Part shown: positions 3,952 through 14,794 of the stretch, in pieces | Position numbering within the stretch: the stretch's first letter is position 1 | Layout of the letters: every line of letters begins with the position of its first letter | Source of the DNA: Ensifer adhaerens | GTDB lineage: Bacteria; Pseudomonadota; Alphaproteobacteria; Rhizobiales; Rhizobiaceae | Reading direction: 5' to 3' | DNA: 64,000 nt | NCBI RefSeq assembly: GCF_002940685.1 | Contig: NZ_PNFP01000003.1 | Span: 186,001 to 250,000, forward strand | The notes under the pieces: generated by a model | What the model was told of the DNA's origin: nothing | Databases searched by the model: none | The model's input: only the letters and a program-made list of their open reading frames with translations | Position numbers and translations under genes: made by a program

Positions 3952-5001
3952 ATGAAGAACGGACCCAGACAACGGGCCACCATCATCGACGTTGCGGAAC
4001 GGGCGGGGGTCTCGAAGAGCACGGTTGCGCGTGTTCTGGCCGGGTCCGCCAGCATTTCCGACGAGGCACGCGATCGTGTGCTGAAAGCCGTTGCGGTCAC
4101 CGGTTACGAGCGTAATCACCTGGCCGTCGGCATGCGCTCCGGGCGCAGTGGCCTGCTCGGCCTGGTCATTCCCGATATCACCAACCCATTCTGGGCCGAA
4201 GTCGCCCGCGGCGCGCAGGACCGTGCGGCGAAGGACGACATTTCGCTTCTGGTCTTCTCGTCGGACTGGGATGCCGGGAAGGAAGCGACGCATCTGCGTG
4301 CCCTGCGGCGAGCCCGCGTCGACGGCGCGATCATCAATCCGGTCGCCGACAATTTCGATGATCTCGACCGCTTCGGCTTGCCCTTCGTCTTCATCGGGTC
4401 GAGCGCCGAGCGCTTCCCCGATACCTTGAGCGTCGGCTCGGACATTGCCCAGGCGGTCCGTCTCGGCATGGATATCCTCGTCGAGCGCGGGCACCCGGCG
4501 CCGGCCCTGATGCTCGGCCCGCGGTCGCGTCTCGCACGTGCCCGCTTCCTGCGCGCCGTGCACGAGCATTGCGTCGCGCGCGACCTCGATCCCGACATCT
4601 TGCTGGCCGAAGAATCCGACTACACGGTCGAGGGCGGACGAAAGGCCATGGGGCGCTTGCTTGCCGGGCCGTGGAGAGGCAGTCGCGCCGTCTTCGTCGC
4701 CAACGATCTGATGGCACTCGGTGCCATGATCGCCGTTCGCGAGGCGGGGCTCCGGTGCCCGGAGGATATTTCCATTCTCGGCTTCGACGGCATTCCGGCG
4801 GGTGCTTTCTCCTGGCCCGGTCTGACGACGATTGAAAAGCCCGGCCGGCAGATCGGTATTCGCGCGGTCGAATGCCTGCTCGATCAGATTTCGGGCCGTC
4901 CGGAACAGGGGCGGATTTTTCTGCCGTGCCGGCTGGTCGAGCGCGGCTCACTCGCTGATGTTTCGGTCTCGGCACCCGCGCGCGCGGCGGCAGGGAGGTA
5001 A
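3952..5001 (+). CDS. LacI-family transcriptional regulator of the ADP-ribosylglycohydrolase operon
   Basis: 349 residues. The start ATG follows GGGAGGAAAC at ideal spacing. Residues ~9-32 form the LacI helix-turn-helix (IIDVAERAGVSKSTVARVL), followed by the hinge 'RNHLAVGMRSGRSGLLGLVIPD'. The remainder is the periplasmic-binding-protein-like effector domain, with 'VFVANDLMALGAMIAVREAG' and 'ILGFDGIP' characteristic of GalR/LacI regulators. It is the first gene of the operon, with only 3 nt before the permease start. The two GGxAACGTTCCC palindromes nearby suggest autoregulation and repression of the downstream genes. The effector is presumably the imported substrate or a breakdown product. 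Confidence 0.92.
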   Translation: MKNGPRQRATIIDVAERAGVSKSTVARVLAGSASISDEARDRVLKAVAVTGYERNHLAVGMRSGRSGLLGLVIPDITNPFWAEVARGAQDRAAKDDISLLVFSSDWDAGKEATHLRALRRARVDGAIINPVADNFDDLDRFGLPFVFIGSSAERFPDTLSVGSDIAQAVRLGMDILVERGHPAPALMLGPRSRLARARFLRAVHEHCVARDLDPDILLAEESDYTVEGGRKAMGRLLAGPWRGSRAVFVANDLMALGAMIAVREAGLRCPEDISILGFDGIPAGAFSWPGLTTIEKPGRQIGIRAVECLLDQISGRPEQGRIFLPCRLVERGSLADVSVSAPARAAAGR

Positions 5002-5004
5002 ACA

Positions 5005-12732: not shown

Positions 12733-13946
12733 GCGGTTACGCCAAGCGGCATTTCGATCCGGCCGCCAGGGGGCCGCTTGCCGGCACGCGCGTGCTTGAT
12801 CTCTCGCGCCTCGTCGCCGGTAACATGCTGTCGTTGCAGCTTGCCGACGCCGGCGCCGACGTCATCAAGATCGAGCCGCCGGCCGGCGATCCGCTGCGCG
12901 ACTGGAAGGATGACGGCCACTCGCTCTACTGGAAGACCTATAGCCGCAACAAGCGCTCCGTCGTCCTGAACCTCAGGCATGAGCCGGCGATGGCAGCGCT
13001 TTGGGCGCTGATCGAAACGGCCGACGTCTTCATCGAGAATTTTCGGCCGGGAACGCTGGAGCGCATGGGGCTTTCGCCGGAAGCGCTGCACGCCCGCAAC
13101 CCCAACCTCATCATCGTGCGCATTTCGGGTTTCGGCCAGACCGGCCCCTATGCGCAGTTCCCCGGCTTCGGCACGATCGTCGAAGGCATGAGCGGATTTG
13201 CCTACCGAACCGGCTTTCCCGACCGCGAGCCGGTGCTGCCGCCGCTGGCGCTTGCCGACATGATTGCCGGCGTCTATGGCAGCTCGGCCACCGTCACGGC
13301 GCTGCTTGCGCGCGATCGCGGCCATGCAAAGGGGCAGGTGATCGACCTCTCGCTGCTCGAACCGATGTTTTCCGTGCTCGGGCCGGAAGCGGCGATCTAC
13401 CAGACGACCGGCAAGATCAAGGAACGCGTCGGCAGCGCCTCCAACACGGCTGCACCGCGCAATGTCTATCGCTGCCGCGACGGCAAATATGTGGCGCTGT
13501 CCGGATCGACGCCACAGGTGGCAAGGCGGATTTTCGAGATCATCGGCCGCGCCGACATGAACAACGACCCACGCTTCGCCACCAATTCGGAGCGCGTCAG
13601 GAACCGCGAACTCGTCGACGAGGCCGTTGGCGGTTGGTTTGCCCGGCACGATCACGATGAGGCGCTGCAAATCATGCGCGATGCTGGCGCAACTGTCGGG
13701 CCGATCTATAACATCGCAGATGCGGCGTCTGACCCGCATTTCGTCGAGCGCGAGATCATCGTTGATGTCGAGGATGCCGAGTTCGGCAGCCTGCCGATGC
13801 ACAACATCGTGCCGCGTCTCTCAGAAACGCCCGGTGTCTGGCGGCGGCCGGCACCAACGCTTGGGGAACACACGGCCGAGGTTCTGGCCGAAGCGGGATT
13901 GGATGGCAACGCGATCGAAACGATCCTGCAGGGAGAGGCCGGATGA
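12729..13946 (+). CDS. CaiB/BaiF family (class III) CoA-transferase
   Basis: 405 residues. It shows the family N-terminus 'GPLAGTRVLDLSRLVAGNM' and 'GADVIKIEPPAGDPLRDW', with the catalytic aspartate in 'LALADMIAGVYG' near residue 177, the residue that forms the aspartyl-CoA anhydride in formyl-CoA transferase and CaiB. Class III enzymes move CoA from succinyl-CoA or another donor to an organic acid. Overlaps of 4 nt at both ends tie it to the ABC ATPase and to the CoA-ester lyase. With the lyase it resembles known CoA-transferase/lyase pairs acting on malate or citramalate, so the substrate may be a hydroxy-dicarboxylic acid released by the glycohydrolases (inference). Confidence 0.88.
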   Translation: MSGYAKRHFDPAARGPLAGTRVLDLSRLVAGNMLSLQLADAGADVIKIEPPAGDPLRDWKDDGHSLYWKTYSRNKRSVVLNLRHEPAMAALWALIETADVFIENFRPGTLERMGLSPEALHARNPNLIIVRISGFGQTGPYAQFPGFGTIVEGMSGFAYRTGFPDREPVLPPLALADMIAGVYGSSATVTALLARDRGHAKGQVIDLSLLEPMFSVLGPEAAIYQTTGKIKERVGSASNTAAPRNVYRCRDGKYVALSGSTPQVARRIFEIIGRADMNNDPRFATNSERVRNRELVDEAVGGWFARHDHDEALQIMRDAGATVGPIYNIADAASDPHFVEREIIVDVEDAEFGSLPMHNIVPRLSETPGVWRRPAPTLGEHTAEVLAEAGLDGNAIETILQGEAG

Positions 13947-14794
13947 GGCTTCGCTCCCTTCTCTACGTTCCAGCCTCGTCCGAGCGGTTCATTGCCAAGG
14001 CGCACGAACGCGGCGCGGACGCGATCATTCTCGACCTGGAAGATTCCGTTGCTCCGGACCAGAAGCAGGCCGCACGGGACGGGCTGAAGCACGCCGTGGC
14101 GCAGGCGGGACGCGGTGGCGCGACCGTTTTCGTCCGCATCAACGCGGCGCCGGCGTTGCGCATGGCAGATGCCGAGGCCGCCTGCCGTGCCGGCGCCTTT
14201 GGTCTCTACGTCGCAAAAACCCGGTCGCCGCAGGAGCTGAACGAGATTGCATCGCAACTCGCACCGATCGAGCAAGAGATTGGTCGGCCGCCGCTCGCCT
14301 TCGTGGCGCTTATCGAGGATGCCGGCGCCATTCTCGATGCCCGCGCGATTGCCCGCGTCGAACGGGTGATCGGCCTTGCCGCCGGCGGTGAAGACATTGC
14401 GACCAGCATGGGCGCGGAACCGCTGCCGGACGTGCTGCGGCTTCCGAAGCTGATGGTCCATCTTGCCGCCAAGGCGGAAGGCAAGCTGTCCTTCGGCATG
14501 CTTCCAACGGTTGCGGACTACCGGCGGCTGGATGTGCTGGAGGCAGCCGCGCGTGAGGCGAAGGCCCATGGGTTCGACGGCGCGAGCTGCGTCCACCCGT
14601 CCGTGGTTCCGGTGCTGAACGCGTCTTACGCCCCGAGCGCAGAGCAGATGGCCTGGGCAAGGACCGTGCTCGACGCCGCACAGGCGGCTGAAGCGGTGGG
14701 GCGGGGCGCCTTTGTGCTGAACGGCACCATGGTCGACGCGCCAATCATCGAACGCGCGCGCCATGTTCTCGAACAGGCAGGCGACCTTCGCTGA
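13943..14794 (+). CDS. HpcH/HpaI-type CoA-ester lyase (CitE-like)
   Basis: 283 residues. It has the CitE/malyl-CoA lyase signature 'LRSLLYVPASSERFIAKA' at the start, 'GADAIILDLEDSV' near residue 28 (metal-binding acidic cluster), 'FVRINA', 'ALIEDAGAILDARAIA' near 120, and 'GASCVHPSVVPVLN' near 215. Enzymes of this group split a 3-hydroxyacyl-CoA such as malyl-CoA, citramalyl-CoA or citryl-CoA into acetyl-CoA plus an oxoacid. Its start overlaps the CoA-transferase stop by 4 nt, so the two are probably made in equal amounts and act in sequence. It is the last gene of the operon; no clear terminator hairpin was found before the convergent gene. Confidence 0.87.
   Translation: MRLRSLLYVPASSERFIAKAHERGADAIILDLEDSVAPDQKQAARDGLKHAVAQAGRGGATVFVRINAAPALRMADAEAACRAGAFGLYVAKTRSPQELNEIASQLAPIEQEIGRPPLAFVALIEDAGAILDARAIARVERVIGLAAGGEDIATSMGAEPLPDVLRLPKLMVHLAAKAEGKLSFGMLPTVADYRRLDVLEAAAREAKAHGFDGASCVHPSVVPVLNASYAPSAEQMAWARTVLDAAQAAEAVGRGAFVLNGTMVDAPIIERARHVLEQAGDLR

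Follow-up and report, generated by a model that had tools for sequence, protein, structure and literature searches.

The subject of this study is a nine-gene operon in a 64,000-nucleotide window of Ensifer adhaerens DNA (contig NZ_PNFP01000003.1, positions 186,001 to 250,000), in which a LacI-family regulator and a sugar importer are joined to two ADP-ribosylglycohydrolase-family (ADPRG) proteins and to a pair of coenzyme A (CoA) enzymes. Families were assigned with the curated models of Pfam and NCBIfam (cut-off of PF03747, 26.2 bits). Together with the open reading frames (ORFs), these confirm the nine genes, their families, positions and plus-strand orientation as listed by the initial annotation (Table 1). 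The genes are indeed packed within the 50 nt that it had claimed, with successive spacings of 3, -7, 49, -29, 17, 30, -4 and -4 nt, that is, from a 29-nt overlap to a 49-nt gap. The overlap between the binding protein and ADPRG1 genes becomes 11 nt if ADPRG1 begins at its alternative start. An SBP_bac_1 protein, two permeases and a MalK/UgpC ATPase make up a complete CUT1 carbohydrate ATP-binding cassette (ABC) importer, the relation of its binding protein to AlgQ1/AlgQ2 having an E-value of 5.7e-18 in a PDB sequence search. The ORF just downstream of the CitE gene (14798-15337) gave no match in the Pfam scan and is excluded from the gene count.

Table 1. Genes and operators of the Ensifer adhaerens operon (positions in the window).
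Feature	Position	Strand	Assignment and remarks
14-bp operator TGGTAACGTTCCCA	3889..3902		49 nt upstream of lacI; 0-mismatch match
LacI-family regulator	3952..5001	+	Pfam PF00356 + PF13377
CUT1 permease 1 (LplB/UgpA-like)	5005..5970	+	PF00528; real start possibly downstream of operator 5052-5065
Perfect palindromic operator TGGGAACGTTCCCA	5052..5065		After lacI, ahead of the conserved body of permease 1
CUT1 permease 2	5964..6872	+	PF00528
Solute-binding protein	6922..8343	+	PF01547 (SBP_bac_1); closest solved relatives AlgQ1/AlgQ2
ADPRG1, first ADP-ribosylglycohydrolase-family protein	8315..9535	+	PF03747, 146.4 bits; alternative start 8333
ADPRG2, 699-aa protein	9553..11652	+	PF03747, 169.6 bits; profile search, predicted model, structure comparison
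UgpC/MalK-type ABC ATPase	11683..12732	+	NF008653, 481.1 bits (cut-off 432)
CaiB/BaiF family III CoA-transferase	12729..13946	+	PF02515 (CoA_transf_3), 399.7 bits
CitE-like CoA-ester lyase	13943..14794	+	PF03328 (HpcH_HpaI), 112.7 bits (cut-off 25)

The conservation of this gene set was assessed by scanning public genomes with the ADPRG2 protein, the best 80 of 154 confirmed loci being kept (numbered with the prefix L). Close relatives, with 60-95% identity, account for 67 of these (L029-L093, L102, L106); judged by their record titles, all are alphaproteobacterial except L080, from a contig labelled Planctomycetota, and the best named ones are Ensifer loci (94-95% identity in the 699-aa protein). 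Since an identical gene order recurs in several genera (named Ensifer, Devosia, Pelagibacterium and other records), the gene set is beyond chance. Many of the contigs are cut, and the counts for the 67 close loci are 66 for ADPRG1, 59 for the binding protein, 53 for the ATPase and 60 for CaiB. At the 59 loci with at least 3.5 kb of downstream sequence, CaiB is present in 58, and CaiB together with CitE in 52. The gene families thus stay together across alphaproteobacterial loci, as the initial annotation had proposed to check, and its view that the ADPRG proteins occupy the place of a glycosidase in an importer operon is supported. CitE is missing nearby at L042, L044, L045, L046, L089 and L091, which keep CaiB, and at L055, which has neither; five of these seven are titled Ensifer or Sinorhizobium, and the host genome of the window has a 55% CitE homologue elsewhere. 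On the Rhizobium plasmid locus L087, the ADPRG1, CaiB and ADPRG2 genes align in pieces, suggesting frameshifts or sequencing errors. A protein of about 650 residues with a C-terminal FGE-sulfatase-like domain lies directly downstream of CitE at L075 (15211-17199) and L068 (14035-15960). The spread of the operon is patchy: of 297 genomes in the order, 18 carry a relative (E up to 1e-20). One of these is the window's own, the 17 others come from other families, and the 12 further genomes listed for the window's family have none. Horizontal spread is likely in view of this patchy distribution and of the plasmid-borne copies in several genera.

Each operator core was found in 53 of 54 close loci, and exact matches in the whole host genome are confined to the two places in the operon; on this sequence evidence the LacI regulator seems to be dedicated to this gene set. 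When one mismatch was allowed, 10 places were found in the host genome versus 18 for a reversed control. The eight places outside the operon are at chance level, and therefore no further regulon genes are claimed. The palindrome core also lies upstream of lacI in all three spirochaete loci and occurs once, between lacI and the permease, in Nitratireductor; with up to one mismatch, it was not found in the ten clostridial loci, L141, L142 or L112. What had been described as a single operon may be two transcription units: given the second operator, the genes from permease 1 to CitE may form a unit of their own. A promoter scan of 3700-15100 gave three sites, all on the opposite strand, and 14 terminator-like sites were found there versus 7.9 (sd 3.3) in shuffles; neither result was built upon.

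Both ADPRG proteins belong to the ADPRG superfamily by a curated PF03747 match and an ADP-ribosylhydrolase (ARH) fold, and they are the only PF03747 matches in the 7.5-Mb host genome. They had been called paralogues: they do share the family, but they are not close paralogues, the blastp alignments between them being short (24% over 98 aa, 43% over 37 aa, and otherwise trivial). Residues D81, D82, D326 and D328 of ADPRG1 are invariant in 12 of 12 aligned sequences, and D58, D59, D60, D282 and D284 of ADPRG2 in 30 of 30; these DD and DxD acidic motifs are presumably metal-binding. About 400 of the 699 residues of ADPRG2 are without a Pfam match. Its layout comprises an ARH-fold domain (about 1-345), a middle beta-rich region (about 360-530) and a C-terminal domain (about 534-699) with the fold of the carbohydrate-binding module CBM66, as judged by profile search, predicted model and structure comparison. 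Because of this modelled architecture, ADPRG2 looks like a carbohydrate enzyme. The fold and the conserved acid residues are common to the ADP-ribosylhydrolases ARH3, ARH1, DraG and MJ1187, to which identity is 13-19%; the operon proteins differ from these by their extra carbohydrate-type modules and their sugar-operon context. Compared with the CBM66 of Bacillus subtilis levanase, the operon domain is fused to an ARH domain and is cytoplasmic by context. CBM66 is taken here to be a fructofuranose binder.

The two last genes would deal with an acid. CaiB is a family III CoA-transferase that attained no equivalog cut-off in NCBIfam. CitE belongs to the HpcH/HpaI aldolase/citrate lyase superfamily, with scores of 106.5 against the (S)-citramalyl-CoA lyase RipC model NF038242 (cut-off 375) and 147.6 against the citrate lyase beta model TIGR01588 (cut-off 443.4); its PDB relatives carry the names citrate lyase beta-like, acyl-CoA lyase and malyl-CoA lyase. 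The idea that a CoA-transferase/lyase pair serves an organic acid gains indirect support from other phyla, where other acid-cleaving modules replace this pair. In terms of gene content, the CoA genes are a replaceable cassette of the operon, because they are missing in some loci and swapped for CitDEF or for AtuA plus DUF4387 in clostridial and spirochaete loci. Homologous operons lacking the CoA genes, which the initial annotation regarded as telling against it, thus exist in part (Nitratireductor, 7/59 close loci, clostridial and spirochaete loci).

In Clostridia (10 loci), the usual core consists of LacI, two permeases, the binding protein, the 699-aa protein and a second ADPRG. Five of the ten carry CitE and CitF, and CitD was recognised in all five by sequence reading. 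L104 appears to be continued on another contig of the same genome by ADPRG-CitD-CitE-CitF (L252; not joined), and the genomes of L097 and L100 have CitDEF of the same type elsewhere (L253, L254). AtuA (PF07287, DUF1446) with DUF4387 is the acid module of all three spirochaete loci (L105, L107 and L108) and of two Bacillota loci, L141 and L142, found by a search separate from the 80-locus scan, which makes five such ADPRG operons. CitE is common in kind to the CaiB+CitE and CitDEF modules; CaiB, CitF and AtuA are of different families. The second ADPRG also falls into two subfamilies (about 24% identical) that do not track the acid module, L141 pairing AtuA with an alphaproteobacterial-type protein. 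In a 43-row tree of the large ADPRG protein, with rows chosen rather than random and module labels taken from loci of unequal length, all 25 rows labelled with an acid module lie inside a single clade, which has 32 rows. Its seven rows without a label are L104, L097, L100, L098, L094, L082 and L110; L094 and L082 are on short contigs and L110 has no module. The 11 outer rows (10 loci) showed no acid module; most lie next to importer genes, and a kinase match is close to several of them.

The kinase brings a clue about the sugar. The absence of a sugar kinase holds within the window but not in several relatives, where a ribokinase-like PfkB match lies in the cluster (L088, L107, L141, L112 and six of the ten clostridial loci). 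The host genome has eight ribokinase-model matches elsewhere, none above the curated cut-off. For the five kinases tested, two of them from the inner clade, the best model was ribokinase, with 210-291 bits for a cut-off of 299.65. The glycoside is probably a furanoside, the common denominator of the kinase and CBM66 hints. At L103, a fructose-6-phosphate aldolase-like gene lies downstream of the kinase, with no match in the other loci scanned.

As for the acid, the methylaspartate pathway provides a parallel: it leads from mesaconate to citramalate, which then needs to be cleaved. The spirochaete AtuA is 46-48% identical to Prevotella and Salmonella plasmid genes located downstream of methylaspartate ammonia-lyase; other plasmid AtuA relatives sit in other contexts. 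Methylaspartate ammonia-lyase was found in 59 of 299 Bacillota genomes. Of the 65 matches listed, 48 were examined together with flanks of up to 8 kb; most of the other 17 were close to the start of a contig or were fragments of split genes. AtuA lies near the ammonia-lyase gene in 30 of the 48 loci (with DUF4387 in 29), CitE+CitF in 4, both in none and neither in 14. This mutual exclusion gives a Fisher value of 0.016 when loci are treated as independent, though they are not independent; the AtuA proteins of L200 and L201, for example, are identical. AtuA plus DUF4387 is placed like a citramalate lyase in the five ADPRG operons, at L153, at L156 and at loci among L178-L225. The same choice between CitDEF and AtuA thus recurs in ADPRG operons and methylaspartate clusters, which points to citramalate and makes AtuA/DUF4387 a candidate for the missing citramalate lyase. 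AtuA could be a hydratase instead of a lyase; in an indirect test, a fumarase match was found near 12 of the 30 AtuA loci, and AtuA is therefore not a simple fumarase replacement. Structure prediction of AtuA from three sequences gave a mean pLDDT (predicted local distance difference test) of 48.5, too low for a fold search. A grouping of the operon CitDEF with that of methylaspartate clusters was not supported by the trees.

Taken as a whole, these data have an even chance of describing a LacI-controlled catabolic operon for a 2-hydroxy-2-substituted succinate, with citramalate as the best guess, in glycosidic linkage to a sugar, most likely as a furanoside. The CUT1 importer would take up this small glycoside, and the two ARH-fold hydrolases would act on it in the cytoplasm, the CBM66-like domain of ADPRG2 possibly holding its sugar. 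A ribokinase-like kinase, whose gene is part of the cluster in some relatives and lies elsewhere in the host genome, would phosphorylate the freed sugar. CaiB would transfer CoA to the freed acid from a donor such as succinyl-CoA, and the CitE-like lyase would split the CoA ester into acetyl-CoA and an oxoacid (pyruvate in the case of citramalate); overall, the acid would yield acetyl-CoA, or acetate, plus an oxoacid. We infer the glycosidase activity, the sugar, the acid and the order of steps from what is read in the sequences, namely gene content, conservation, operators, folds, conserved acid residues and module replacement. The pathway initially sketched keeps its conserved gene set, its ADPRG proteins standing in for a glycosidase and its acid-processing pair, and loses the fixed CoA genes and the absence of a kinase in relatives. 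The widest version is possible but doubtful: an undescribed pathway for citramalate (or sister acid) glycosides with CBM-bearing ARH-fold glycosidases, in which CaiB+CitE, CitDEF and AtuA+DUF4387 are interchangeable, AtuA+DUF4387 being a new citramalate lyase and the missing methylaspartate step in enterobacteria and many Bacillota.

Several observations weigh against the proposed furanoside pathway. The function-named solved relatives of the ARH domain are nearly all ADP-ribosylhydrolases. No acid module was seen in Nitratireductor (L110), which has the core alone, or in clostridial L094 and L098 (the L098 genome has two short citF pieces only); seven of the 59 close loci lack CitE (six with CaiB alone) or both acid genes. 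On the sugar side, CBM66 suggests fructose whereas the kinase suggests ribose, and all five tested kinases fall under the ribokinase cut-off. The trees separate operon CitE and CitF, as a clade of their own, from both reference citrate lyases and methylaspartate-cluster proteins, and four of the five operon AtuA proteins form their own branch (stem 1.19), that of L142 being very distant; therefore, the acid may be a third, related compound. No citramalate glycoside was found in the open-access literature searched by exact phrases.

It is somewhat unlikely that the same kind of glycoside carries another acid, such as citrate, 3-hydroxy-3-methylglutarate, malate or methylmalate. CitDEF is named for citrate, and the L103 CitF exceeds the cut-off of the citrate lyase alpha model TIGR01584 (579.1 vs 501.45), but the L103 CitE does not reach its own (315.6 vs 443.4); CitD is present there, and the tree clade is separate. 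This option is also favoured by the operon CitE/CitF not being nearest to methylaspartate-cluster proteins, and by CaiB+CitE pairs that have transporters as neighbours, tripartite tricarboxylate or other, in three plasmid regions (in a fourth, they are separate genes of one cluster; a fifth is unannotated). Citrate itself is disfavoured, since all three genomes examined among those carrying operon CitDEF (G299, G301, G850) have a second CitE/CitF pair that falls outside the operon clade; the CitE of this pair clusters with reference citrate lyases (99/97), without a clear placing of its CitF. Besides, aerobes with a full citric acid cycle would need no CoA route for citrate, and AtuA+DUF4387 points to citramalate. 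A citF above cut-off is also present in two of the three spirochaete genomes that have the AtuA module.

The acid might instead be an ester or another substituent on an oligosaccharide, with the ADPRG proteins cutting sugar-sugar bonds. AlgQ1/AlgQ2, which the binding protein resembles, bind alginate oligosaccharides, and ADPRG2 bears a CBM-like module. A PHB-depolymerase-type esterase lies inside the AtuA-type operon L142 (11147-12058), a match to it (165 bits) inside the CitDEF-type clostridial operon L101 (near 5668), and alpha/beta hydrolase or esterase genes near L141 and L108. However, Pfam finds no esterase and no other glycosidase family in the nine window genes, and the 67 close loci have no match to the L142 esterase, other esterase types not having been sought; this makes the oligosaccharide unlikely. 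Alternatively, a single transcription unit could combine two separate functions: a core that scavenges ribosides or furanosides, and a carboxylate cassette with no link to it. L110 and the outer family do have the core without an acid module, and CaiB+CitE is a portable unit in the three plasmid regions. The presence of three different acid modules within one ADPRG2 clade, with none in the outer rows, and the 4-nt overlap of the CaiB and ATPase genes make such a coincidence quite improbable. A DraG-like role, with the ADPRG proteins removing ADP-ribose from the importer or a regulator just as DraG removes it from nitrogenase reductase, would fit their PF03747 membership but is very improbable. 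ADPRG1 is far under the cut-offs of the DraG model TIGR02662 (49.6 for 337.05) and of the Tri1 model NF041672 (20.9 for 490), and ADPRG2 matches neither. ADPRG2 bears a carbohydrate-type module, Pfam finds no ADP-ribosyltransferase family among the nine genes, and the usual partners of ADPRG proteins are sugar importers, often with a kinase.

Among known systems, yegTUV of E. coli puts an ADPRG-family protein together with a transporter and a PfkB kinase, like the core of the ADPRG operons; to our knowledge, it lacks an ABC importer, a second ADPRG and an acid module, and has no clear function. The system described in PMC12290011 likewise handles a 2-hydroxy acid with the pairing of a CoA-transferase and a CoA-ester lyase. 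In contrast, the Ensifer operon has no fumarase, couples its pair to an importer of sugars and to two ADPRG proteins, and has a substrate that is predicted only. CitDEF and AtuA+DUF4387 are common to the ADPRG operons and to the methylaspartate pathway of glutamate fermentation, with its CitDEF-type citramalate lyase (PMC4682846). The differences are that no glutamate mutase or ammonia-lyase was noted in ADPRG operons, and that operon CitEF and AtuA form separate clades. No described pathway with this gene set was found in the open-access literature within the terms used, in agreement with the initial annotation; the operon is a new arrangement of known families.

Elsewhere in the window, an RTX calcium-binding repeat protein (122-2053, plus strand) is encoded a little upstream of the operon. 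A 1903-aa ORF (54130-59841, plus strand) combines GMC oxidoreductase, alpha/beta hydrolase and PhoD-like phosphatase domains, and a 1345-aa ORF (49798-53835, minus strand) has an adenylate/guanylate cyclase domain and an AAA_16 ATPase domain.

Two predictions emerge, namely sugar-cleaving ARH-fold enzymes and AtuA/DUF4387 as a citramalate-type lyase. Annotation of the ADPRG family usually follows its ADP-ribose-acting members, and the operon and its wider family bring evidence for a branch that acts on imported sugars. In PMC4682846, the fate of (S)-citramalate is described as unclear in E. coli O157:H7 with the methylaspartate cluster, and a DUF1446 protein downstream of mal as being of unknown function; by the record names of similar matches, DUF1446 is AtuA. 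If the module-swap argument holds, AtuA plus DUF4387 would be a testable candidate to fill this gap in the fate of enterobacterial (S)-citramalate.

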